From the NCBI RefSeq assembly GCF_014873145.1, contig NZ_JADBEK010000001.1, forward strand, positions 3,286,001 through 3,350,000: a stretch of 64,000 nucleotides of DNA, in the 5' to 3' direction. The notes under the pieces are model-generated. The model saw only the letters and a list, made by a program, of their open reading frames with translations. It had not been told where the DNA came from and did no database searches. Each line of letters begins with the position of its first letter. The stretch's first letter is position 1. The position numbers and the translations under genes were made by a program. Positions 11,795 to 25,233 of the stretch are shown piece after piece. The stretch is from Nonomuraea angiospora (GTDB lineage Bacteria > Actinomycetota > Actinomycetes > Streptosporangiales > Streptosporangiaceae).

Positions 11795-13555
11795 TCAGTC
11801 GCCCGTGCGTTCCTCCGCCTCGGCGATCCGCTCGGCGCTCCACAGCCGCCGCATCTCCGGGCAGCTCTCCAGCAGCTCGCCGAGCCGCCCCCGCCCCGCG
11901 ACCCGGCCGCGGTCGAGCACCACGATCTGGTCGGCGCGTTCGAGCGCGGCCTGCCGGTGGGAGACGACCAGCAGGGTGCCGTGGCCGGCGATCCGCTCCC
12001 ACAGCAGCCGCTCGGTCTCGACGTCGAGCGCCGACGACAGGTCGTCCACGACCAGCAGGTCCGGGTCGCGGACGAGGGCGCGGGCGGCGGTGGCCCGCTG
12101 CACCTGCCCGCCGGACAGCCGCACCCCGCGCGGCCCCACGACCGTGTCGAGCCCGTCGGGCATCGCGGCCAGGTCCGGCTCGAACGCGGCCAGCTCCAGC
12201 GCCCGCCCGAGCTCGGCGTCGGTCGCGGGCCGGCCGAGGAGCAGGTTCTCGCGCAGGGTCTCGGAGAACAGCCTCGGGACCTGGCTCGCGTACGCCGCCC
12301 GGCCGGGGACGAGGAACGTGCCCGGGTCGGCGACGGGCACGCCGTTCCACGAGATCGTGCCCTCCTCCAGCGGCAGCAGGCCGAGCAGGGCGCGTACCAG
12401 GGTGGTCTTGCCCGAGCCGACCGCGCCCGTGACGACCGTGAACGAGCCGCGCTCGACGCGCAGGTCGATCCCCCGCAGCCCGCCCGCGCTCAGCCCGCGG
12501 GCCTCCAGCACCCGCAGCGGGCCCGGGTGCGGGGGCACGGCCGCGACCGCGGGCGGGTCGCGGCGCAGCCAGACGTCGGCGCCGCGCGACAGGTCGCCGG
12601 CGCTCTCGTGCGGCGCCATCAGCCGGGTGAGCCGCTCGGTGGCGACCGCGGCCTGCGGCAGGCGGTACAGGACGGTGCCGATCGACCGGGGCAGGGCCGT
12701 CAGCCAGCCGATGTAGCTGGTGAACAGCGCGAGGTCGCCCACCGTGAACTCGCCGCCGCGCATCGCGGGGGCGGCCAGGAGCAGGACGAGCCCGATGCTG
12801 AGCTCGACGGTCGCGCCGGTCGTGGCGTCCAGCAGGTCGGTGGCCAGGCGGTCCTTGACGGCGGCCGCGCGCCGCCGCCGGTTGTGCTCGCGCAGCCGCT
12901 CCAGCGCCGCCTCCTCGGCTCCCGCGGTCTTGATGGCGAGCACGCCGCCGAAGATCTCGCCCACGTACGACGTGACGGCCGCGCCGAGCGTCCTGGCCCG
13001 CTGGTGCAGCCTCCCGATGGTCTGCCGCATGAGCCTGCTCAGCACGCCGATCGCGACCATCGGCAGCACCAGCGCCAGCGTGATGACGGGATCGGCGGAA
13101 GCCATGATCGTCAGCGCGGCGGCGGCGAAGAGCGTCGTCCCGGCCAGGCTGACGCTCTCGTCGGTGAAGTCGACCGCGTCGGCCACGTCGTCCCGCAGGC
13201 GGGCGACGGACTCGCCGGGCGAGTGCGGCAGCCGCGCCGCGGCGGGGCCGCGGGCGGTCAGGATGGAGCGCAGGGCGTTGGCGCGCAGCAGGGTGGCCGC
13301 CGCGGCCCACCAGTAGACCCCGTACGTCCACGCGATGACGATCATCAGGCCCCGGGCGACCTCCACGCCCACGAACGCCGCGCACAACCACAGCGCCCAG
13401 CCCGGGTCGCCGCCGAGCCCGTCGAAGATCCGCTGCAGGACGAGCCCGCTCGCCAGCGGGATCACGTGGACGGGCAGCCAGAGCAGCGCCCCGATGAGGT
13501 AGCGGCGGAAGTCGAACGTGGCCAGCCTGGTGGCCACCAGCATGACCGGCTTCAC
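11795..13555 (-). CDS. ABC exporter half-transporter B (TMD-NBD)
   Basis: A 586-residue fused membrane/ATPase protein. The first ~300 residues carry about six TM segments; the NBD follows. Walker A is TGAVGSGKTT and the signature is the consensus LSGGQ. Walker B reads LLVVDDLSSALD, with Asp where the catalytic Glu normally stands. It starts at a GTG that overlaps the stop of exporter A (GTGA). Together A and B form a heterodimer in which B gives the good signature and A gives the good Walker B. That makes one working and one degenerate ATP site, as in TM287/288-like exporters. It is the last gene of the peptide-modification operon and probably exports its product. Confidence 0.88.
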   Translation of the reverse strand: MKPVMLVATRLATFDFRRYLIGALLWLPVHVIPLASGLVLQRIFDGLGGDPGWALWLCAAFVGVEVARGLMIVIAWTYGVYWWAAAATLLRANALRSILTARGPAAARLPHSPGESVARLRDDVADAVDFTDESVSLAGTTLFAAAALTIMASADPVITLALVLPMVAIGVLSRLMRQTIGRLHQRARTLGAAVTSYVGEIFGGVLAIKTAGAEEAALERLREHNRRRRAAAVKDRLATDLLDATTGATVELSIGLVLLLAAPAMRGGEFTVGDLALFTSYIGWLTALPRSIGTVLYRLPQAAVATERLTRLMAPHESAGDLSRGADVWLRRDPPAVAAVPPHPGPLRVLEARGLSAGGLRGIDLRVERGSFTVVTGAVGSGKTTLVRALLGLLPLEEGTISWNGVPVADPGTFLVPGRAAYASQVPRLFSETLRENLLLGRPATDAELGRALELAAFEPDLAAMPDGLDTVVGPRGVRLSGGQVQRATAARALVRDPDLLVVDDLSSALDVETERLLWERIAGHGTLLVVSHRQAALERADQIVVLDRGRVAGRGRLGELLESCPEMRRLWSAERIAEAEERTGD

Positions 13556-15297
13556 CGGCTCACCCCCGCCAGGTCGAGCAGCCGCCCGAACCTGCTGCCG
13601 GGGTCGGCGGCGAGGTCGGCGCGGCGGCCGTACTCGACGATCTTGCCGTGGTCGAGCACGGCGATCTTGTCCACGCGCGACAGCGAGGACAGGCGGTGCG
13701 CGATGATCACGCCGGTCCGGCCGTCGAGCAGCCGGTCGATGCTCTGCTCGATGCGGCGTTCGGTGGCGGGGTCGAGCCTGCTGGACGCCTCGTCGAGCAC
13801 GACGAGCCCGGGGTCGGAGAGGAACGCGCGGGCGAACGCGATGAGCTGCGCCTCCCCCGCCGACACCGCGCGCAGCTCGGTGTCGAGCCCGTCGGGCAGC
13901 CCGGCCAGCCACTCGCCCAGCCCGACGCCGTGGAGGACCTCCCGCAGCCGCGCGTCCCCCGGGGACGGCCGGAAGAGCGTCAGGTTGTCGCGCAGGCTCG
14001 CCGCGAAGAGCTGGACGTCCTGTGTGACCACGCCGATCCGCGTTCGCACGGACGCCTGGCCGGCCTCGCGCAGGTCCAGCCCGCCGACCCGCACGACGCC
14101 CTCGGACGGGTCGTACAGGCGCAGCGCCAGGCGGGCGAGCGTGGTCTTGCCGCTGCCGGTCCGCCCCACCAGGCCGAGCGTCTCGCCGGGGGCCAGCGTG
14201 AGGGTGACGCCCGACAGCACCTGCTCGTCGTCGCCGGGGTAGGCGAAGCCGACGCCGTCCAGGCTCAGGCCGAGCGGGCCGGTCGCGGGCAGGGGGCGGG
14301 TGCCCTCGGGCAGCGTGCGCCGCTCGGCCAGCAGGTCCGCGATGCGGGCCAGACCGGCCAGTGCCGCCTGGTACTGCCTGATCTGGTCGATGAGCCGCTC
14401 GAACGGCGTGCGTACCATCAGCGTGTACTGGAAGATCAGCACGGCGGTGCCGATCGTGAGCGTCCCCGACCGCAGCGCCCAGGCGGCGAGCCCGAGCATG
14501 ATCGCGGTGCCCGCGGCGAACGCCACCGACGTGCCCGCCAGCAGCGTGGTCCCGATGCGCGCGTCCCTGACCTCGGCGCGGTAGAGGGCGGCGCTGACCT
14601 GGTGGAAGCGGCGTACGGTGTGCTCGCCCGCGCCGTTGGCCCGCAGGTCCTCGGCCCCGGCCAGCCGCTCCTCCAGCAGGCCGAACAGCCGCGCGCTCGC
14701 CGCGCGCGACCGGGCGGCGGCCGGCACGGCCAGCCGCTGGGCGCGGGCCATCCCCCACCCGATGAGCAGGCAGTAGACCAGCAGCGCGCAGCCGATGCGC
14801 CAGTCGACGCCGAACACGATGACGACCACCCCGGCCAGGAGCAGCACGCTCGCCACGACGTCCATGAGGAACGCGACGACGAAGTCGGCCACGGCCACGA
14901 CGTCGCCGTCCACGCGTTCGATCATCTCGCCGGGCGTGTGCCGGCCGTGGAAGGCCAGGTCCAGGCCGAGCGCGTGCCGGGCGAGGCGCTCGCGCAGGCG
15001 GTTGGTGCCGTCCCAGGCCAGGCGGCCGGCCAGCCACGCGGCGACCGGCCGGGCGGCCTGGCCGGCGACGGCCAGCGCCAGGTAGCCGACGGCGATCAGG
15101 GTCAGGTGCCTGATGCTCGCGCCGCCGATCGCGTCGTCCACGAAGCGGCGGGTGATCTGCGGCGCCGCCAGCGGGAGCGCGGTGGTGGCGGCTATGGCCG
15201 CGGCGAGCGCGGCGCCCTGGCGACGGCCCGGGCGCAGCAGGCGCAGGACGGAGGGGCTATGCGGTGGAATCCCTTGGTCGAACGATCTCGATGACAA
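13552..15297 (-). CDS. ABC exporter half-transporter A (TMD-NBD)
   Basis: A 581-residue fused TMD-NBD exporter. TM segments begin at GAALAAAIAATTALPLAAP. Walker A is GLVGRTGSGKTT, Walker B is LVVLDEASSRLD with the catalytic Glu present, and the signature is VSAGE instead of LSGGQ, so it is degenerate. This complements partner B. In this frame a TGA lies two codons before the TTG at 15297, so translation must start at this TTG or later; no ATG or GTG is near. The 5' end overlaps the 33-residue ORF at 15257-15358, whose strong ribosome site may feed ribosomes onto the TTG. Confidence 0.86.
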   Translation of the reverse strand: MSSRSFDQGIPPHSPSVLRLLRPGRRQGAALAAAIAATTALPLAAPQITRRFVDDAIGGASIRHLTLIAVGYLALAVAGQAARPVAAWLAGRLAWDGTNRLRERLARHALGLDLAFHGRHTPGEMIERVDGDVVAVADFVVAFLMDVVASVLLLAGVVVIVFGVDWRIGCALLVYCLLIGWGMARAQRLAVPAAARSRAASARLFGLLEERLAGAEDLRANGAGEHTVRRFHQVSAALYRAEVRDARIGTTLLAGTSVAFAAGTAIMLGLAAWALRSGTLTIGTAVLIFQYTLMVRTPFERLIDQIRQYQAALAGLARIADLLAERRTLPEGTRPLPATGPLGLSLDGVGFAYPGDDEQVLSGVTLTLAPGETLGLVGRTGSGKTTLARLALRLYDPSEGVVRVGGLDLREAGQASVRTRIGVVTQDVQLFAASLRDNLTLFRPSPGDARLREVLHGVGLGEWLAGLPDGLDTELRAVSAGEAQLIAFARAFLSDPGLVVLDEASSRLDPATERRIEQSIDRLLDGRTGVIIAHRLSSLSRVDKIAVLDHGKIVEYGRRADLAADPGSRFGRLLDLAGVSR

Positions 15298-15358
15298 ACG
15301 TCATGCCCTTTGGATAGGAGGTCTCATTGCTCTGGCGGGACATGAACGTCGTCCTCAT
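15257..15358 (-). CDS. 33-residue ORF, candidate RiPP precursor or coupling leader peptide
   Basis: A small ORF between the radical-SAM-like gene and the exporter genes. Its ATG follows AAGGAGG by six bases, one of the best ribosome sites in the window. The C-terminal half reads MTFVIEIVRPRDSTA and the N-terminal half is rich in Ser/Thr/Asn/Gln. There is no cysteine, so it cannot form lanthionine rings. Codon use is less G+C-rich than in the neighbours. It overlaps the first 41 bases of exporter A in another frame. Two readings fit: it is the substrate peptide of the LanB-like enzyme, or a leader whose translation allows re-initiation at the exporter's TTG. No homology was recognised. Confidence 0.5.
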   Translation of the reverse strand: MRTTFMSRQSNETSYPKGMTFVIEIVRPRDSTA

Positions 15359-15429
15359 CGCCGGCCTCCTTGATCCGATGGGCTCGCTCCAGGGAGTACA
15401 GCAGCCCCGCGCGGGCCGGGGCAACCGGT

Positions 15430-16905
15430 TTACCCGCTGCCCCGCAGCACCCCTGCCCGCGCCAGCCCGGCGGTCAGCCGCGCGCGGGCGGGGCCCGGGA
15501 GGCAGTCGAGGGCGTGCGGATCGTGGGCCGCGAGCCGGGAGACGGGCGCGATCTGGTACGGGTTGAGCCGGAACGATTGCCCCGACCGCAGGCTCACCGC
15601 GAACGTCCCGGGCCCGCACCCGTCGGGCCCCGCGCCGCCGGCCACCACCTGCGCGCACGGGTCCCACCCGGGAACGGGTTCCGCGCCGGCCACGGAGCAG
15701 GCGGCCAGGCGCCCCGGCGGCAGCCCGGGAAGCCGCTCCAGCCACTCCTTGATCATGCGGGTGACCTCATAGGCCCGCATCGTGCCGGGCGCGTCGAACT
15801 CCACCCACCTGACCAGGTCGTCCCCGGCCCTCGGCGGGAAGCGCACGCTCTGCCCGGCCCACTCCGAGCGGATCGCCATCCGGTACGGCCGCAGCCCGGC
15901 CAGCCGGACCCCGCCGGCGCCCGCCGCCAGCAGCTCGACGGACTCCCCCGCGGCGCCCGCGGCCACGCCGGGCGCGCCCAGCACCAGCTCGCACGCCACC
16001 GCCACGCCCGGCGGGATCGCGGCCAGCAGCCGCCGCAGGTTGACGGTCCACCCGTTCAGGCCGGTCACGGCGGCCAGGAAGTCGATCCGCGTCACGGCGA
16101 TCGTCAGGCCGCGGCAGCGGGCCAGGACGTCCCTGGGGAAGGCGGCCACCCGCTCCGCGTCCAGCCATCCGGCCCACGGCCCGCCCTCGGGCGGGCGGCA
16201 CGCCCCGGTCACCCAGCGCACCTGCTTCCCCGGCCGGGTGTCCGAGGCGTCCCGCGACCGTGCCCCTTCGACGGGCCCGGCGTCCGTGTCCTTCCCCTTG
16301 CCGGCGCGCCACGGGGGGCGGATCACCCGTTCGGGCGACCACGCCGAGAACTCGGCCCCGGCCAGCTCCGGCACGCGCCGCAGCGCCGCGCCGAGCCGGG
16401 CCACGAGCCGCCCGCACAGCGTCACCCGCTCCGCTCCCAGCGCTCCCACCAGCGCGAACGCCGCGGGCAGCTGCCGGGCGGCGTCCAGCGCGACGTGCGC
16501 CCGCCGCCCGGCGGCGACCTGCGCGGCCAGCTCGACCTCGGGCCGGAACACCTCGCACCGCCCGGCCGCGCCGAGCACGTCCCTGCTGCTCTGCATGCTG
16601 CCCTCGGCCAGCTCCAGGTCGTCGATGCTGAGCCGGACCGCGGGGTCGGCCGCCAGCCGCAGCGCCGTGCCCACCGCTCTGAGGCGGGCGTCGTCGAACG
16701 CCTGCCGCTCCAGGACGGCCGCCGCCGCCCGCTCGAGCAGCGCCGCCTGCGGCCCGCCGTCGAGCCGTTCGGCGGCGGCCCGCAGCCGGGACGGGTCGGC
16801 GAGGCGTGCGACGACGTGTTCGTTGAGGTCGAGCACCTCGGCTCCGGGAGGCGGCACGACCTCGGTGGTGAAGTCGGTCAGCGGCGGGATGACGAGCAGC
16901 TCCAT
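15430..16905 (-). CDS. Uncharacterised protein, tentatively a degenerate B12-binding radical-SAM-like protein
   Basis: A 491-residue protein not confidently recognised. Its start, MELLVIPPLTDFTTEVVPPP then AEVLDLN, resembles the first strand and loop of B12-binding radical SAM enzymes. The later stretch LRRLLAAIPPGVAVACELVL followed by GAPG and LAGLRPYRMAIRSEWAGQ resembles the end of their barrel. The CxxxCxxC motif for the 4Fe-4S cluster is absent; nine cysteines are scattered singly. If the relationship holds, it is a non-catalytic or binding partner. ATG 16905 overlaps the stop of the LanB-like gene (TGATG), with GGGGGAG eight bases upstream. The tight coupling argues that the two proteins act together. 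Confidence 0.4.
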   Translation of the reverse strand: MELLVIPPLTDFTTEVVPPPGAEVLDLNEHVVARLADPSRLRAAAERLDGGPQAALLERAAAAVLERQAFDDARLRAVGTALRLAADPAVRLSIDDLELAEGSMQSSRDVLGAAGRCEVFRPEVELAAQVAAGRRAHVALDAARQLPAAFALVGALGAERVTLCGRLVARLGAALRRVPELAGAEFSAWSPERVIRPPWRAGKGKDTDAGPVEGARSRDASDTRPGKQVRWVTGACRPPEGGPWAGWLDAERVAAFPRDVLARCRGLTIAVTRIDFLAAVTGLNGWTVNLRRLLAAIPPGVAVACELVLGAPGVAAGAAGESVELLAAGAGGVRLAGLRPYRMAIRSEWAGQSVRFPPRAGDDLVRWVEFDAPGTMRAYEVTRMIKEWLERLPGLPPGRLAACSVAGAEPVPGWDPCAQVVAGGAGPDGCGPGTFAVSLRSGQSFRLNPYQIAPVSRLAAHDPHALDCLPGPARARLTAGLARAGVLRGSG

Positions 16906-19652
16906 CAGCGACACTCCCCCTGCCATGGGTACGGGTGCGCCGCCCGAGCCCCCTGGACCACCGGGCCGGCCGCCCGCGAGCACGAATCCGCGCGCACGTC
17001 CGCCGGCCCCGGATAGCGGGCGACCGCCCGCGAGCGCGCCGCCGGGGAGCAGGTGTCGCCCCCTTCCGCTTTCGGCCGGGCGGCCGGGGAGCGGGTGTCG
17101 GCCGTCTCCGCTTTCACCCGGACCGCTGAGGGGCGGGTCTCGGCCGTCTCCGATTTCGGCCGGGGCACCGGGCGGCCGCCGGCCGGGCGCAGGTAGACGC
17201 AGCGCAGCTCGGCGGCGAACCGGAGCCCGCCATCCCGCAGCCAGCACTCCTCCGGCCCCGGCAGGGTCTCCGTCAGCGTGAGCCGCTCGGCCGTGGCCGC
17301 CAGCCGGCCCAGCCCCTCGACCAGCGCGGGCGAGCGGGTGTCGACGTGGATCGGCCGGCGTTCGCGGGCGGACGCGGCGAAGAACGTCACGGGCAGGTCG
17401 TGCGTCTCCCGCAGCCGCGCCATCGCGACCAGCAGCTCGCGATCCCCGACCGCCTGCCCGAGCGCGTCGAACGACGCCCGGCCCACGCGCCACACGCGCC
17501 GCGAGATGACCACGTTGTCCCAGGTCAGCCTGGGCACCCTGGAGAGGTGCCGCAGGTCCGGCCGGCGCACCCTCGGCAGGGCGAGCGCCGTGTGCAGCGC
17601 CGTGTCGTCGTGCTCGCCGTTGTGCAGCAGCAGCGGCCCGTCCACCCCCTTGGCCCGCAGGACGGCCCGGCGCCCGTCGCTGTGCACGTACAGCTCGTCG
17701 AGCCCGATCCGGCGCCGCCCGCCGTCGGCCGTCACTCCGCCCAGCTCCAGCACCGGCCCGGGGAACTCCAGCGGCGGCCGGCCCGTGGCGCGGCGCGAGA
17801 TGACGTTGAGCGCGGTGTGGCCGCCGAGCGCCCGCGCGATCGCCGCGTCCCGCTCGGCGACGAGCGCGGCGCCGTCGGGGTGGAACTGCAGGGCCCACGG
17901 CGTCAGCAGCGCGACGTCGTGGAGGTCGCCGAGCACCAGCGGGGTCAGCCCCGGCTCGTACGCCTCCAGCGACGGCGCGGCCACCATGACGTCGGCCGAG
18001 CAGAGCACGGGCGCGGCCGGCGGCTCGGGGTCGTCCAGCAGGCCCGCGAGGTCGACGGTGGCGGCGCCGGGCGGCGCGGCGCGCACGATCGCGGCGATCC
18101 GCTCGGCGAGGCGGTCGCCGTAGCGGATCTCCAGGTCGCCGGTCGCCCCCAGCACCTCGGCCAGCCCGAACGTGCCCGCCCCGAGCCGGCCGGCGAGCCG
18201 CCGGTTGGTGCGCTGCCTGGTCAGCTCGGCGTCGGCGGCGAGCAGGTCGAGCACCTGGGGCACGCGGCCTTCCAGGTCGGCCGCCAGCCCCGCGCCGACG
18301 CTCACCCGGAGCGTGCCTGCCGCGGCCTCGTGCACGACGACGCGGTCGTCGCCGGGCCGGTCGTCGTGCGCCCGTCCGCTGCCGGCCAGCGTCTCGAGCC
18401 GCCGCTGCAGGGCCAGCTTCACGTCGGGAGAGGCGGCGGGATACTGGGCGAGCAACTCGGTGATCTCCCGCACCCGCCGCCCCACCGGCAGATCGCCCCC
18501 CGAACGGTGGGCATCCGGATGGGGGGCCTCCGAGCGGGAGCCATCCGAACGGTGAGCGTCCCGGTGGGAGGCGTCCGGGCGGGAGGCGTGCGGGCGCGGG
18601 GTTTCGGCGGGGAGGCGTTCGCGCAGCCAGGACAGGGGGTCGGCGACCGTGGCCGGCGGGCAGAGGTCGTGGGTGAGCAGCCCGCGGCGCACCGCCACCG
18701 CCAGGGCCGCGGCGGCCTGCTCCAGCTCCATCCCTGACTCGGCGGCGATCTCGGCCAGCGTCCGGCTCCCGTCGCACAGCGCGACGAACGGCGCCGCGCC
18801 GGACACGGCGTCCGGCACGGCGCGCGTCCAGGTCCGGCGGCGCGGCACCAGCCCCGCCACGAGCGCGGGGTCGGCCAGGACGCGCCGCTGGAGCGCCTCG
18901 CCCACCCAGTCGGCCGGGTACGCCACCCGCCGCGGGCGCGCCCGGTGGCCCGACCACGTGTGGCCGCCGGGCGCCGCGGGCTCGACCCGGCCGTGGTCGA
19001 GCGGCCCGAAGCTGCACGTGGCGCAGAGCCCCTGCAGGACCGAGCCGACCAGGCGCCGCAGCCGGCCGCCCTTGGCGACGCCGCGCCGCAGGTCGCGGTA
19101 GAGGCCGGGCGCCGAGCGCACGAGGGCGTCGAGGAAGCGCTCGTCGGCCGCGATCCCGGCCGCCGCCGCGCGGGCGAGCGCCGCGTCGGCCGCCGTCGTG
19201 CCCGCCAGGGCGAGCCGGGCGTCCTCCAGCGCCCCGGTCGCCTCGTTCCAGGCGGCGAGCCAGCCGGCGGGCGCGGGCGTGTCGTCCGGGAGCGGGCGCA
19301 GGTCACGCAGGCGGCTGCGCAGGCCACGCGGCAGCCGCCCGCCGCCCGCCCCACGTACGGGACGGGCGTCCCCGCCTGCGGCGCTGCGGACCGGGCGGGG
19401 GTCATCGGCCGGAGCCCGGCGGCCCGGGCGGGGGTCCTCAGCCGGAGCCCGGCGATCCGGGCGGGGGTCTTCGGCCGGGGCGTGGCGGGCCGGGGCCTCG
19501 GCGAGCAGGTCGAGCGCCCGCCGCTCCAGCCGGACGACCTCGGCGGCCGCCGCCGCGGCCCGCGGGTAGGCCAGGGATCGGACGAGCTCCCAGGCGAAGC
19601 CCGCGCTCCGGACGGTCACGGCCGGCAGCAAAGTCCAGTCCTGCTCGCTCAC
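16905..19652 (-). CDS. LanB-like lantibiotic dehydratase, glutamylation domain only
   Basis: A 915-residue protein whose N-terminus LLPAVTVRSAGFAWELVRSL is typical of LanB-type enzymes. Later blocks LNVISRRATGRPPLEFPG and RLTWDNVVISRRVWRV also fit. Full LanB enzymes add glutamate from Glu-tRNA to Ser/Thr and then eliminate it. The C-terminal elimination (SpaB_C) domain is missing here. The protein could be half of a split LanB with a partner elsewhere, or a peptide aminoacyl-tRNA ligase-like enzyme. Three low-complexity insertions interrupt it: repeated APAEDPRPDRR units near residue 55, His/Asp/Ser-rich repeats near residue 355, and KAE/TRSPAAR repeats in the last 90 residues. The start is a GTG 52-57 bases downstream of a -10 candidate. 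Confidence 0.75.
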   Translation of the reverse strand: MSEQDWTLLPAVTVRSAGFAWELVRSLAYPRAAAAAAEVVRLERRALDLLAEAPARHAPAEDPRPDRRAPAEDPRPGRRAPADDPRPVRSAAGGDARPVRGAGGGRLPRGLRSRLRDLRPLPDDTPAPAGWLAAWNEATGALEDARLALAGTTAADAALARAAAAGIAADERFLDALVRSAPGLYRDLRRGVAKGGRLRRLVGSVLQGLCATCSFGPLDHGRVEPAAPGGHTWSGHRARPRRVAYPADWVGEALQRRVLADPALVAGLVPRRRTWTRAVPDAVSGAAPFVALCDGSRTLAEIAAESGMELEQAAAALAVAVRRGLLTHDLCPPATVADPLSWLRERLPAETPRPHASRPDASHRDAHRSDGSRSEAPHPDAHRSGGDLPVGRRVREITELLAQYPAASPDVKLALQRRLETLAGSGRAHDDRPGDDRVVVHEAAAGTLRVSVGAGLAADLEGRVPQVLDLLAADAELTRQRTNRRLAGRLGAGTFGLAEVLGATGDLEIRYGDRLAERIAAIVRAAPPGAATVDLAGLLDDPEPPAAPVLCSADVMVAAPSLEAYEPGLTPLVLGDLHDVALLTPWALQFHPDGAALVAERDAAIARALGGHTALNVISRRATGRPPLEFPGPVLELGGVTADGGRRRIGLDELYVHSDGRRAVLRAKGVDGPLLLHNGEHDDTALHTALALPRVRRPDLRHLSRVPRLTWDNVVISRRVWRVGRASFDALGQAVGDRELLVAMARLRETHDLPVTFFAASARERRPIHVDTRSPALVEGLGRLAATAERLTLTETLPGPEECWLRDGGLRFAAELRCVYLRPAGGRPVPRPKSETAETRPSAVRVKAETADTRSPAARPKAEGGDTCSPAARSRAVARYPGPADVRADSCSRAAGPVVQGARAAHPYPWQGECR

Positions 19653-19703
19653 ACGGCCACCCCTTCTCGCGCGGAATTACACCCGGCACGTCTTAACTCA
19701 AAA

Positions 19704-19731
19704 TGCTTACAAGATCATCTTTGCTTGTCAA
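19704..19731 (-). promoter_or_regulatory. Probable promoter of the RiPP-like operon
   Basis: On the minus strand TTGACA (19726-19731) is followed after 16 bases by TAAGCA (19704-19709). The region is clearly more A+T-rich than its surroundings. Transcription would start near 19697, giving a leader of about 45 bases before the GTG. The rest of the 292-base divergent gap to the phosphatase gene shows no convincing gene. Confidence 0.45.
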
Positions 19732-19944
19732 TGAGACCGCCGATGAGAAATCAATGAGCAGGTCTTAACGACTCCACCGCCCGCACCTGCAAATCCCGCC
19801 ATAGGGTGCGGAGTCGTTTACTTCTGGTTTTCATCCCCTTATCTGCCCTGCACAGGGGCCGGAGTCCGGCGCGGCGGCCCGAATTCGGACGCCCATTTCG
19901 CGATTTCTTCCGTACGTTCGAGAAAGCCGCCGTTACGCCGTTCC

Positions 19945-21054
19945 ATGACGGGGGATGAAGGAATCGTGACGGATGGCGGGCGGCGCGAAGGGCCGAATCT
20001 CTCGACACCGGCGTTCGTCGCCGGGCTCGCCGTCATCACCGCGATGGTGGCCGCGCTCGACATCCTCTCGGGCTCGGCGGTGCGGCTGTTCCCGCTGCTG
20101 ATCTTCCTGCCGGCGATCGTGGCGGGGCTGGGCACCGTACGGCAGACGATCGTCGCGTCGGTGTGGGTCGTCCTGGCGGCTGGGGGGATCACCACGTACC
20201 TGGGCGGCGAACCCAACGACAACCTGCTGGCAGCCGGGTTCACGGCCGTGTTCGGCGCGCTGAGCGTCTTCGGCTGCGCCTACCGGGTGCGGCGCGAGGA
20301 GGAGGTGCACCGGCTGCGCTCGGCGGCCGCCGCCCTCCAGCAGCTCATCGTGCGCCCGCTGCCGCTGCGCACCGCCGACGTCGTCATCGACGGCCTCTAC
20401 CAGCCGGTGGAGGAGGACACGATGGTGGGCGGCGACATGTACGAGGTCGCCGTCTCCCACCACGGCACCCGGGTGCTCATCGCCGACGTGCAGGGCAAGG
20501 GCCTGCCCGCCATCGGGACCGCGCTGGCCGTGCTGGGCTCGTTCAGGGAGGCGGCCTACCGGGAGGAGACCCTGGCCGGGGTCGTCGAGGCGATGGAGAA
20601 CGCCGTGGCCAGGCAGAACACCTTCGCCGCCACCACCGGTGAGCCCGAGCGTCTGGTCACCGCCCTGGTGCTGGACATCAGCCGGCGGCTGGACGTCGAG
20701 GCGGTCAACTGCGGGCACATCGCCCCGTACATGATCCACCGCGGCGACGCCCGGCAGGTCGACCTCGGGGAGCCGTCCGTGCCGCTCGGCGTGGGCACGC
20801 TCGCTCCCGGGCCGCGCGGCGGCGCGCGGTTCGCGTTCCCGCCCGGCGCGGCGCTGGTGCTGTGCACCGACGGCGTCACCGAGGCCCGCGACCCCCGCGG
20901 CGCCTTCTACCCGCTGGAGGAGCGCCTGGAGGGCTGGGCCTCCGACCCTCCCGATCGGCTCGCCCAGGTGCTCGGCGAAGACCTGCGCGCGTTCACCAGG
21001 ACGGCGCCGCGCGACGACATCGCGATCCTCACGCTGCGCCGGTCCGAGTCCTGA
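19945..21054 (+). CDS. Membrane-anchored SpoIIE/PP2C-type phosphatase
   Basis: A 369-residue protein. The N-terminal 120 residues contain about four TM segments (such as FVAGLAVITAMVAALDIL and TIVASVWVVLAAGGITTYL). The rest is a PP2C domain of the RsbU/SpoIIE type. Metal-binding motifs are VGGDMYEV, IADVQGKGLPA, LCTDGVTEARD and TRTAPRDDIAILTL; a VNCGHIAPYMI block is also present. Such enzymes dephosphorylate anti-anti-sigma factors and so control sigma-factor release. No partner gene is adjacent. GTG 19966, preceded by GAAGGA, is an alternative start. Confidence 0.88.
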   Translation: MTGDEGIVTDGGRREGPNLSTPAFVAGLAVITAMVAALDILSGSAVRLFPLLIFLPAIVAGLGTVRQTIVASVWVVLAAGGITTYLGGEPNDNLLAAGFTAVFGALSVFGCAYRVRREEEVHRLRSAAAALQQLIVRPLPLRTADVVIDGLYQPVEEDTMVGGDMYEVAVSHHGTRVLIADVQGKGLPAIGTALAVLGSFREAAYREETLAGVVEAMENAVARQNTFAATTGEPERLVTALVLDISRRLDVEAVNCGHIAPYMIHRGDARQVDLGEPSVPLGVGTLAPGPRGGARFAFPPGAALVLCTDGVTEARDPRGAFYPLEERLEGWASDPPDRLAQVLGEDLRAFTRTAPRDDIAILTLRRSES

Positions 21055-23634: not shown

Positions 23635-25233
23635 ATGATCATCGCCAGTGACATAGAGCTGCGCGCGGGCGCGCGGCTGCTTATTGAAAAAGCCTCGTTC
23701 CGGGTCAACCCGGGCGACAAGATCGGGCTCGTCGGCCGCAACGGCGCGGGCAAGACGACCCTCACCAAGGTGCTGGCGGGCGAGGGCCTGCCCGCCAGCG
23801 GGTCCGTCACCACCAGCGGCAGCGTCGGCTACCTCCCCCAGGACCCGCGCACCGGCGACCTGGAGGTGCTCGCCCGCGACCGCATCCTGTCGGCGCGGGG
23901 TCTCGACGAGGTCCTGCGCAAGCTGCGCGAGGCCGAGCTCGGCATGTCCTCCGCCGACGACCGCACCCGCGAGAAGGCCGTCAGGAAGTACGGCAGGCTC
24001 GAGGACCAGATGCACGTGCTGGGCGGATACGCGGCCGAGTCGGAGGCCGCGTCCATCGCCTCCAGCCTCGGGCTGCCCGATCGCGTGCTCTCGCAGCCGT
24101 TGCAAACGCTTTCCGGCGGTCAGCGCCGGCGCGTGGAATTGGCGCGAATTCTTTTCAGCGGAGCGGAAACTCTCCTTCTCGACGAGCCGACAAACCACCT
24201 AGATGCCGACTCAATCGGGTGGCTTCGTGATTTTTTGCGTTCGCATCAAGGCGGCTTGGTGATCATCAGCCACGACGTCGCTCTTCTTGAAGCGACGGTC
24301 AACAAGGTCCTGCACCTGGACGCCAACCGCTCGGTGATCGATCACTACAACGTCGGCTGGAAGGCCTACCTCGCCCAGCGCGAGACCGACGAGAAGCGCA
24401 GGAAGCGCGAGCGCGCCAACGCCGAGAAACAAGCAGGTGCGCTGCTCGCGCAGGCCGACAAGATGCGGGCCAAGGCCACCAAGGCCAAGGCCGCGCAGGA
24501 CATGATGCGGCGTGCGCACCGGTTGCTGTCGGGCACCGAGGAAGAGCGTAAGAGCGACAAAGTGGCGCGGTTGCGCTTCCCCGAGCCGCAGCCCTGCGGG
24601 CGCACCCCGCTCACGGCCGAGGGGCTGTCCAAGTCGTACGGCTCGCTGGAGGTCTTCACCGACGTCAGCGTGGCCATCGACCGAGGTCACAGGGTCGTCA
24701 TCCTCGGCCTGAACGGCGCCGGCAAGACCACGCTGCTACGGATTCTCGGCAACATCGAGACTCCCGACACGGGCGAGATCCGGCCCGGCCACGGCCTCAA
24801 GGTCGGCTACTACGCCCAGGAGCACGAGACCCTCGACCCCGGCCGCACCCTGCTGGAGAACATGCGGTCGGCCGGGGGCCAGTTCACCGACACCGAGCTG
24901 CGCAAGGTGCTCGGCTCGTTCCTGTTCACCGGCGACGACGTCGACAAGCCCGCCGGGGTGCTGTCCGGCGGCGAGAAGACCCGGCTGGCGCTGGCGATCC
25001 TGGTGCTGTCGAGCGCCAATGTCCTCCTTCTCGACGAGCCCACGAACAACCTCGATCCGGTCAGCCGGGAGCAGGTTCTCAATGCGCTGAGGTCCTATTC
25101 AGGAGCGATCGTCCTAGTCACACATGACGAGGGTGCCGTTGACGCCCTGTCACCGGATAGGGTGATCTTGCTACCGGACGGAACTGAAGACGCATGGAGC
25201 GACGAATTTTCCGATCTTGTGGCACTTGCCTGA
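23635..25233 (+). CDS. ABC-F family ATPase
   Basis: A 532-residue protein with two ATPase domains and no TM segments. The first has GLVGRNGAGKTT, LSGGQRRRVELARIL and LLLDEPTNHLD. The linker near residues 240-310 is a basic helical hairpin (KRRKRERANAEKQAGALLAQ). The second has LGLNGAGKTT, LSGGEKTRLALAIL and LLLDEPTNNLD. ABC-F proteins bind the ribosomal E site and either tune translation or protect against ribosome-targeting antibiotics. The next two genes, a 71-residue HTH protein and an enoyl-CoA hydratase, are, as I recall, its usual neighbours in actinobacteria, which suggests a core function. A stretch near 24120-24290 is more A+T-rich than the rest of the gene. Confidence 0.93.
   Translation: MIIASDIELRAGARLLIEKASFRVNPGDKIGLVGRNGAGKTTLTKVLAGEGLPASGSVTTSGSVGYLPQDPRTGDLEVLARDRILSARGLDEVLRKLREAELGMSSADDRTREKAVRKYGRLEDQMHVLGGYAAESEAASIASSLGLPDRVLSQPLQTLSGGQRRRVELARILFSGAETLLLDEPTNHLDADSIGWLRDFLRSHQGGLVIISHDVALLEATVNKVLHLDANRSVIDHYNVGWKAYLAQRETDEKRRKRERANAEKQAGALLAQADKMRAKATKAKAAQDMMRRAHRLLSGTEEERKSDKVARLRFPEPQPCGRTPLTAEGLSKSYGSLEVFTDVSVAIDRGHRVVILGLNGAGKTTLLRILGNIETPDTGEIRPGHGLKVGYYAQEHETLDPGRTLLENMRSAGGQFTDTELRKVLGSFLFTGDDVDKPAGVLSGGEKTRLALAILVLSSANVLLLDEPTNNLDPVSREQVLNALRSYSGAIVLVTHDEGAVDALSPDRVILLPDGTEDAWSDEFSDLVALA

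Follow-up and report, generated by a model that had tools for sequence, protein, structure and literature searches.

An apparent pearlin-pathway remnant beside an ABC exporter unit with a putative leader peptide in Nonomuraea angiospora

Locus organization

The window, i.e. the complete stretch of 64,000 nucleotides analysed from the 13.1 Mb genome of Nonomuraea angiospora, holds five open reading frames (ORFs) on its minus strand, and an ORF check of the window confirmed them where a sequence-only reading had placed them, including stop/start overlaps between A and B and between abc1 and abc2. Gene A (16905..19652, minus strand) encodes a 915-residue PEARL-family (LanB glutamylation-domain) protein with degenerate tRNA-side motifs. 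Gene B (15430..16905, minus strand) encodes a 491-residue protein with a radical-SAM-like body that lacks the Cys motif and a possible C-terminal RRE; it is classed as Amm10-type by description and context. The pair is preceded by a conserved promoter, TTGACA-N9-GATCTTGTAAGCAT (19703..19731, minus strand). A second conserved promoter (15395..15426, minus strand), consisting of GGTTGC and, 20 bases after GTTGC, TGTACT, lies between B and a 33-residue ORF (15257..15358, minus strand; MRTTFMSRQSNETSYPKGMTFVIEIVRPRDSTA), which has a Shine-Dalgarno sequence AAGGAGG (15365..15371, minus strand) and overlaps the start of abc1. A predicted stem has its 5' arm inside this ORF, at codons 3-8 (15337..15350, minus strand), and its 3' arm at 15297..15308 (minus strand), covering the GGG of the abc1 Shine-Dalgarno sequence AAAGGG and the first base of the TTG start.

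The remaining genes, abc1 (13552..15297, minus strand) and abc2 (11795..13555, minus strand), encode ABC exporter halves with ABC_membrane and ABC_tran domains and were the only ones of the five with Pfam matches above cut-off. Among the matches listed for the five proteins (for the ABC proteins the best 25 of 186 and 188) none reached an NCBIfam cut-off. The product of abc1 has a degenerate signature (VSAGEAQ) and the catalytic Glu, that of abc2 the reverse, a canonical LSGGQ and Asp in place of the catalytic Glu. Classical heterodimers show the same arrangement of one consensus and one degenerate nucleotide site, and by these asymmetric motifs abc1 and abc2 qualify as the heterodimeric ABC exporter that had been proposed.

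All five genes had been read as one operon. This reading was rejected on account of the second conserved promoter and the separability of the units: exporter and small ORF occur without A, B or X (a second LanB-like protein, see below) at loci L100 and L106, and A and/or B occur without the exporter at seven loci (L020, L021, L025, L051, L052, L153 and L154), where the A/B stretches contain neither the leader promoter nor the stem arm. Homologues that never co-occur with the exporter or small ORF had been named in the sequence-only reading as evidence against it; as co-occurrence is not constant, this objection applies in part. Judged by gene content and promoters, the stretch looks like two neighbouring units and not one RiPP operon; read-through transcription from the first promoter into the exporter unit is possible. 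A class I lanthipeptide cluster was rejected as well, because no elimination domain, LanC or Cys was found: SpaB_C, a split elimination protein and LanC had no Pfam or NCBIfam match in the five proteins and no Pfam match in seven flank genes, and the small ORF indeed lacks cysteine. About 4 kb upstream of A, on the opposite strand, the window carries an ABC-F-like gene (23635-25233) that matches ABC_tran twice and ABC_tran_Xtn.

Family assignment of A and B

A profile built from eight A sequences retrieved one PDB match, 6ec7 ('lantibiotic dehydratase domain protein', E=1.9e-10), which we take to be TbtB. When PF04738 was searched against the genome itself, A matched below cut-off (E=5.9e-4). 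The single-protein Pfam/NCBIfam scan of A gave no PF04738 and one sub-threshold helix-turn-helix match only, the single-sequence PDB search gave nothing useful, and neither Pfam nor NCBIfam gave an elimination-domain match. On the profile evidence A is a member of the LanB glutamylation-domain/PEARL superfamily, and its earlier description as LanB-like without SpaB_C stands.

For B the closest published description is that of Amm10, presented in PMC12424672 as a hypothetical protein of ammosamide/lymphostin clusters with an RRE-like C-terminus and a TsrM/AprD4-like N-terminus without the cysteine motif. The previous guess of a degenerate radical-SAM protein agrees with that account, and the absence of CxxxCxxC was confirmed for B and holds for all nine B sequences checked. 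A radical-SAM match (TIGR04479, E=4.7e-5, far below cut-off) was obtained for one of 13 B sequences, the diverged member of L061. Searched as a single sequence, B had no Pfam or NCBIfam match and PDB matches only at E above 0.7; one B profile had no match in the PDB and a second had two, at E 0.57 and 1.5. An AlphaFold model from three sequences (mean pLDDT 42.5) shows, at low confidence, C-terminal strands followed by helices, in RRE-like fashion. B thus fits an Amm10-type protein, an assignment set by description and context and not by comparison with the Amm10 sequence.

The B profile matched 18 of 297 genomes of the order, from seven genera that all belong to the family of the window, and one of 394 genomes of the class, which is the window's own; few candidates were scored per genome, which makes absence weak here. 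Streptomyces hoynatensis was drawn from another collection than the order and class sets. A match to B at L029 of genome G036 (E=5e-6) was dropped since it sits in a 908-aa ORF of another neighbourhood. In the close relative N. jabiensis B is 95% identical over residues 1-402. B is present without its C-terminal (RRE-like) part at L019 (8143-9387), L023, L025, L026, L030 and L053. Such a loss is to be expected if the leader peptide is gone and nothing is left to bind.

Pearlin-type clusters outside Nonomuraea

Six clusters (L018 and L055-L059) have adjacent orthologues of A and B, a count that leaves aside L060, without BLAST match to the PEARL references, and L061, a more diverged cluster with B and PEARLs and no clear A orthologue. 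Shared by all six, besides A and B, are an S_P3-type PEARL, a TldD-like gene and a roughly 600-codon gene; the latter was scanned in L018, L055 and also L061, and each time gave weak TPR matches under the cut-off. Four of the six have an S_P1-type PEARL, and five have TldE-like and DAO genes; the sequence of L059 stops within TldE, with DAO past its end. In the Streptomyces hoynatensis cluster (L018), A (44% identical) and B (37%) lie amid additional LanB-like genes; next come a TldD-like gene, a presumed TldE, a DAO-type oxidase and a presumed FMN reductase. A 50-aa peptide encoded upstream is a match to the ammosamide/lymphostin leader family NF033737 (E=5e-10).

Matches to this precursor family were found in 7 of 7 B-bearing genomes outside Nonomuraea, one of them below cut-off. 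Eight candidate peptides were printed: six contain APLALA, that of L061 ends in IAPLA and that of L060 in VLLALV. Altogether seven pearlin-type clusters with AmmA-like peptides (L055-L059, L061 and L018) were seen in Streptosporangiaceae relatives and S. hoynatensis. At L060 and L071 a gene of some 590 codons and a short AmmA-like peptide come ahead of a B-like gene, and the 37 kb examined gave no BLAST match to the PEARL references.

Active site residues

Residues reported for BhaBC-Trp (PMC11962472) were placed on an alignment of 42 sequences by motif and spacing, without the BhaBC-Trp sequence itself; positions of the P1 protein of L018 in this alignment lie within 7 residues of the published numbers. 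According to that paper, R208 is a tRNA 3'-end residue, D558, R715, F755, E813 and R815 belong to the ATP side, and the TglB counterpart of R208 is required for amino acid addition and dispensable for ATP-dependent activation.

All 17 tabulated cluster PEARLs (six A, five P1 of which one from L061, five P3 and one P4) keep R34, R208, K-E-T-F-G of the AKxETxSFFGP block, D558 and R715, as well as F or Y at 755, the lysine of the KP motif, E813 and R815. Three PEARL rows lie outside the table: L057_P3, in which the block is kept, and two PEARL-like rows of diverged clusters that depart from it, L061_Pb (Ser for Thr) and L073_Pc (His for the first Phe). Also outside are the disrupted A of L020 and L024, the A fragments of G012, G035 and G074 and the X fragment of L103.

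The complete set was retained by none of 18 Nonomuraea A and none of 7 Nonomuraea X proteins. The lysine of the AKxETxSFFGP block survives in 1 of the 18 A proteins, and no X protein keeps the block. R208 is kept in 15 of 18 A, being Gly in the window and N. jabiensis and Glu in L101; the other sites are kept in 17 (D558), 18 (R715), 11 (E813) and 17 (R815) of 18. By motif and spacing, window A has R34, D558, R715, F755, E813 and R815 in BhaBC-Trp numbering. On its tRNA side R208 is replaced by Gly, Y205 by Val and Q201 by Leu, and a gap of four residues interrupts the subsequent AKxETxSFFGP block, which we place on this side by inference from conservation. The ATP side of window A looks intact. 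Since the R208 counterpart is needed for addition and not for activation, it is improbable that window A works as an aminoacyl-tRNA ligase.

Survey of Nonomuraea

A was found in 23 and B in 16 of 54 Nonomuraea genomes. Where the contig shows them the flanks are alike: one carries a SpoIIE-domain gene, an aminotransferase gene or both, the other a SIR2-YchJ pair; L106 shows only the SIR2 side. The multi-gene loci read A-B, A-B-X-exporter, A-B-exporter, A-X-exporter, A-exporter or B-exporter, and A, B or the exporter also occurs alone. X of L023 and of L096 falls narrowly short of the Lant_dehydr_N cut-off (E about 1e-6), and X of L101 does not match.

An AmmA-like precursor (NF033737) was absent from the window's own genome at E<=1 and from all 54 Nonomuraea genomes at E<=0.01, with a positive control of 7/7, and no TldD/E- or DAO-like gene was matched by BLAST in the mapped Nonomuraea loci or found in the seven scanned window flank genes. 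Going by these searches, Nonomuraea seems to have lost the pearlin pathway. Beyond the window its own genome has two more Lant_dehydr_N matches, L117 and L118; that of L117 spans nearly the whole model and is followed by a 353-codon ORF.

Promoter and constraint on A

The promoter that had been proposed upstream of A was borne out by comparison: 23 of the 54 Nonomuraea genomes contain its 29-bp pattern, each a single time, and reversed-pattern controls gave no hits. An A match is present in 22 of these 23, with the promoter upstream by coordinates and mostly within 0.15 kb (sequences were compared directly in 15 of the 22). In G060 the promoter is kept before a 65-codon ORF and B, without an A match, and G068 has A without an exact promoter match. 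The scanned cluster loci lack the pattern. Past the -35 element a long stretch is conserved (TTGACA-N9-GATCTTGTAAGCAT, 19703-19731), which suggests an operator for a regulator.

Nei-Gojobori dN/dS values for four Nonomuraea pairs were 0.36-0.53 for A and 0.31-0.47 for B; those of X were 0.44-0.47 (two pairs), those of the exporter genes 0.20-0.30 (three pairs) and those of neighbour genes 0.03-0.50. One cluster pair gave 0.33 for A, 0.54 for B and 0.36 for P3. Constraint on A is weakest in the window lineage (dN/dS 0.53; mismatch by codon position 0.050/0.058/0.078), where decay is for that reason possible. Of the internal indels, 50 of 68 in A (ten pairs), 26 of 40 in X and 17 of 23 in B have lengths divisible by three, counts from pairs that share members and are not independent; in five pairs all 22 internal A indels keep the frame. 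L020 and L024 carry a disrupted A or B, and three more A matches (G012, G035 and G074) are fragments only.

Exporter, leader ORF and the Otr(A) link

A homologue of abc1 was found in 22 of 54 Nonomuraea genomes at E<=1e-150. At 17 of the 22 loci an ORF of 31-35 codons, which has a GMT core and is preceded by a Shine-Dalgarno sequence, extends over the abc1 start. These 17 leader loci are at the SIR2 site, apart from L100, which shows only the other flank, and L103, a short contig that shows neither. The other five lie elsewhere, directly after an EF-G-like gene, identified by Pfam in the four scanned and by its N-terminus in L108. All three scanned for it match Otr(A)/tetracycline ribosomal protection models with E below 1e-195, below the curated cut-offs. 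Each of six Otr(A)-like genes, i.e. these five and that of L151, has its start overlapped by a 33-36-residue ORF of the leader type; the 3' arm sequence is present in four of the six and the leader promoter pattern in one, L151, where promoter and stem precede the otrA-like gene. In L150 promoter and leader stand before an otrA remnant, after which come abc1 and abc2 (75% identical). A broad DNA pattern proved too loose: it matched 82 of 297 genomes, mostly unrelated by look, of which G562, G547 and G075 were taken further. In five Nonomuraea genomes (L104, L105, L107, L108 and L109) abc1/abc2 relatives lie behind ribosomal protection genes of the Otr(A)/Tet(M)-like kind, each of which has a short leader ORF ahead of it. 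The simplest history would be an ancestral order leader-otrA-abc1-abc2 from which otrA was lost at the SIR2 site.

In all 17 leader regions GTTGC is followed, after exactly 20 bases, by TGTACT/TGTAAT (16) or GATAAT (one, L101). A stricter form of the pattern is unique in the window, at 15395-15426, with 0.01 occurrences expected. RNAalifold predicts a 12-pair stem between leader codons 3-8 and the ribosome-binding site/start of abc1. Its cells are paired in 98%, against 26-56% in slid controls, its covariation score was reached by 3 of 500 shuffles and its energy by 5 of 300 column shuffles (z -2.74). Two of five stem measures did not beat the shuffles, namely the count of two-sided changes (117/500) and pair types (500/500), and compensatory change is seen at one pair, only in the sister genomes of the window and N. 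jabiensis. Folded one sequence at a time, the leader shows no unusual stability (all ten z-scores lie between -1.73 and +0.12); by eye the minimum-energy fold has the stem in eight of ten, the window and L019 being the exceptions. Of the features of a putative leader attenuator, ORF, promoter and stem are conserved; the single-sequence folds are ordinary. Since the stem arms are also coding, conservation of peptide and of stem is not fully separable. Rfam gave no match in the window, and a simple scan of 15200-20000 for sigma-70 promoters and terminators gave no hit for either. The reading that suits the 33-residue ORF best is that of a leader regulating the exporter. Its candidacy as a RiPP precursor was rejected, because the ORF tracks the exporter and is related to the leaders of Otr(A) genes.

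Discussion

We consider it likely that three things hold jointly: descent of A and B from a pearlin cluster, loss of PEARL residues, and a leader-exporter unit beside them. The first unit, A-B with X in relatives, would descend from a pearlin cluster of the ammosamide/lymphostin type; next to A and B, Nonomuraea shows neither the scaffold peptide nor the other PEARLs, TldD/E or the oxidase, and A and X would have lost aminoacyl-tRNA-side residues that are conserved in other PEARLs. The second, leader ORF-abc1-abc2 with its own promoter, would by descent be the tail of an Otr(A)-type operon that lost otrA. Its stem would mask the ribosome-binding site and start of abc1; a ribosome slowed early in the leader, for instance by a ribosome-binding drug, would open it and allow translation of abc1 and abc2.

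Compared with known systems, window A has a fold family in common with the PEARLs of the ammosamide, lymphostin and bha clusters (BhaBC-Trp, AmmB1-4, TglB), but lacks R208, Y205, Q201 and an intact block, and no scaffold peptide was found. B resembles Amm10 in standing beside PEARLs, lacking the Cys motif, and having one weak radical-SAM match within its family and an RRE-like C-terminus (in a low-confidence model); it differs in that here there is no precursor, and the C-terminal part is lost in several Nonomuraea. Class I LanB proteins and split LanBs such as TbtB belong with A to the glutamylation-domain superfamily, but no elimination domain, LanC or Cys precursor was found here. According to PMC11117183, split LanBs lack the PEARL residues D542 and R803 (TglB numbering), unlike the A orthologues of the clusters, which carry them. 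In bmrB-bmrC-bmrD of Bacillus subtilis a small leader ORF likewise directly precedes a heterodimeric ABC exporter; bmrB acts by transcription attenuation (PMC4191407), whereas the window has a predicted stem that spans the ribosome-binding site of the following gene. Otr(A)/Tet(M)-type genes preceded by a leader peptide share a related leader ORF, adjoining exporter relatives and, in L150/L151, promoter and stem, but the window unit has no otrA; PMC3350403 mentions a putative leader ahead of tet(W). Our literature search, outside of which lay most subscription journals, found no prior report of degenerate Nonomuraea PEARLs or of an Otr(A)-type leader on an exporter. We probably deal with two known kinds in unusual states that adjoin each other, and on present evidence not with a new RiPP class, which had been suggested: no precursor family was matched, the PEARL residues are incomplete and the 33-aa ORF fits a leader better. 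Of the alternative guess, a PEARL-type pathway, the ancestry of A stands and the working pathway does not, in view of the missing precursor match and the incomplete residue set.

That the 33-residue ORF is nevertheless a precursor, modified by A and B and secreted by the exporter, as first proposed, would account for the gene order and the conservation of the small ORF; we regard it as highly improbable, given that this ORF tracks the exporter even where A, B and X are missing (L100 and L106), that at the seven exporter-less loci neither leader promoter nor stem arm accompanies A and/or B, that it overlaps the next gene's start and resembles the leaders of Otr(A)-like genes, that it lacks the acidic region and APLALA stretch present in six of the cluster peptides, and that the PEARL residue set is incomplete. 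With the leader role preferred, the mechanism could also differ from the masking stem. Transcription attenuation, for which bmrB offers a precedent upstream of a heterodimeric exporter (PMC4191407), or simple translational coupling, in line with the overlap of ORF and abc1 start and with a window fold unlike the consensus, seems rather unlikely beside a stem arm that covers the abc1 ribosome-binding site and start, and the simple scan showed no terminator-like site in 15200-20000.

As to the fate of the first unit, A, B and X might be functionless remnants of a dying pearlin pathway. Their patchy loss among loci, the disrupted A or B of L020 and L024, the A fragments of G012, G035 and G074, the missing C-terminal part of B at several loci and the incomplete active site all agree with plain decay, to which we give less than an even chance, because 23 of 54 genomes retain a single copy of the promoter, because dN/dS of A (0.36-0.53), somewhat above that of cluster PEARLs (0.33-0.36), is still below 1, and because 22 of 22 internal A indels in five pairs are in frame. 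The retained promoter and the frame evidence favour retention with a changed role, with decay possible in the window lineage. Having a dedicated conserved promoter and a mostly preserved frame, A may have some other job, a separate inference that is less certain than the rest. One specific form of it, more speculative and on balance unlikely, is a domesticated PEARL: the ATP/carboxylate-activating site would be kept, fully so in the window lineage, and the aminoacyl-tRNA arm lost, so that A, under its own promoter and partnered by B and X, would act as an ATP-dependent enzyme that does without tRNA or as a binding/sensor protein; beside it, a leader switch would have passed from an Otr(A)-type gene to the exporter through loss of otrA.

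A LanB-like gene, a small ORF and an exporter side by side are insufficient to call a RiPP cluster. If the reading of descent, residue loss and leader control is true, Nonomuraea holds a natural series of PEARLs in which tRNA-side residues are lost and the ATP site is mostly kept, a series that would inform the relationship of PEARLs to ATP-grasp enzymes and the role of Amm10. It would likewise mean that a leader-peptide switch, testable by reporter, is common to Otr(A)-like and ABC-exporter genes within one actinobacterial family.
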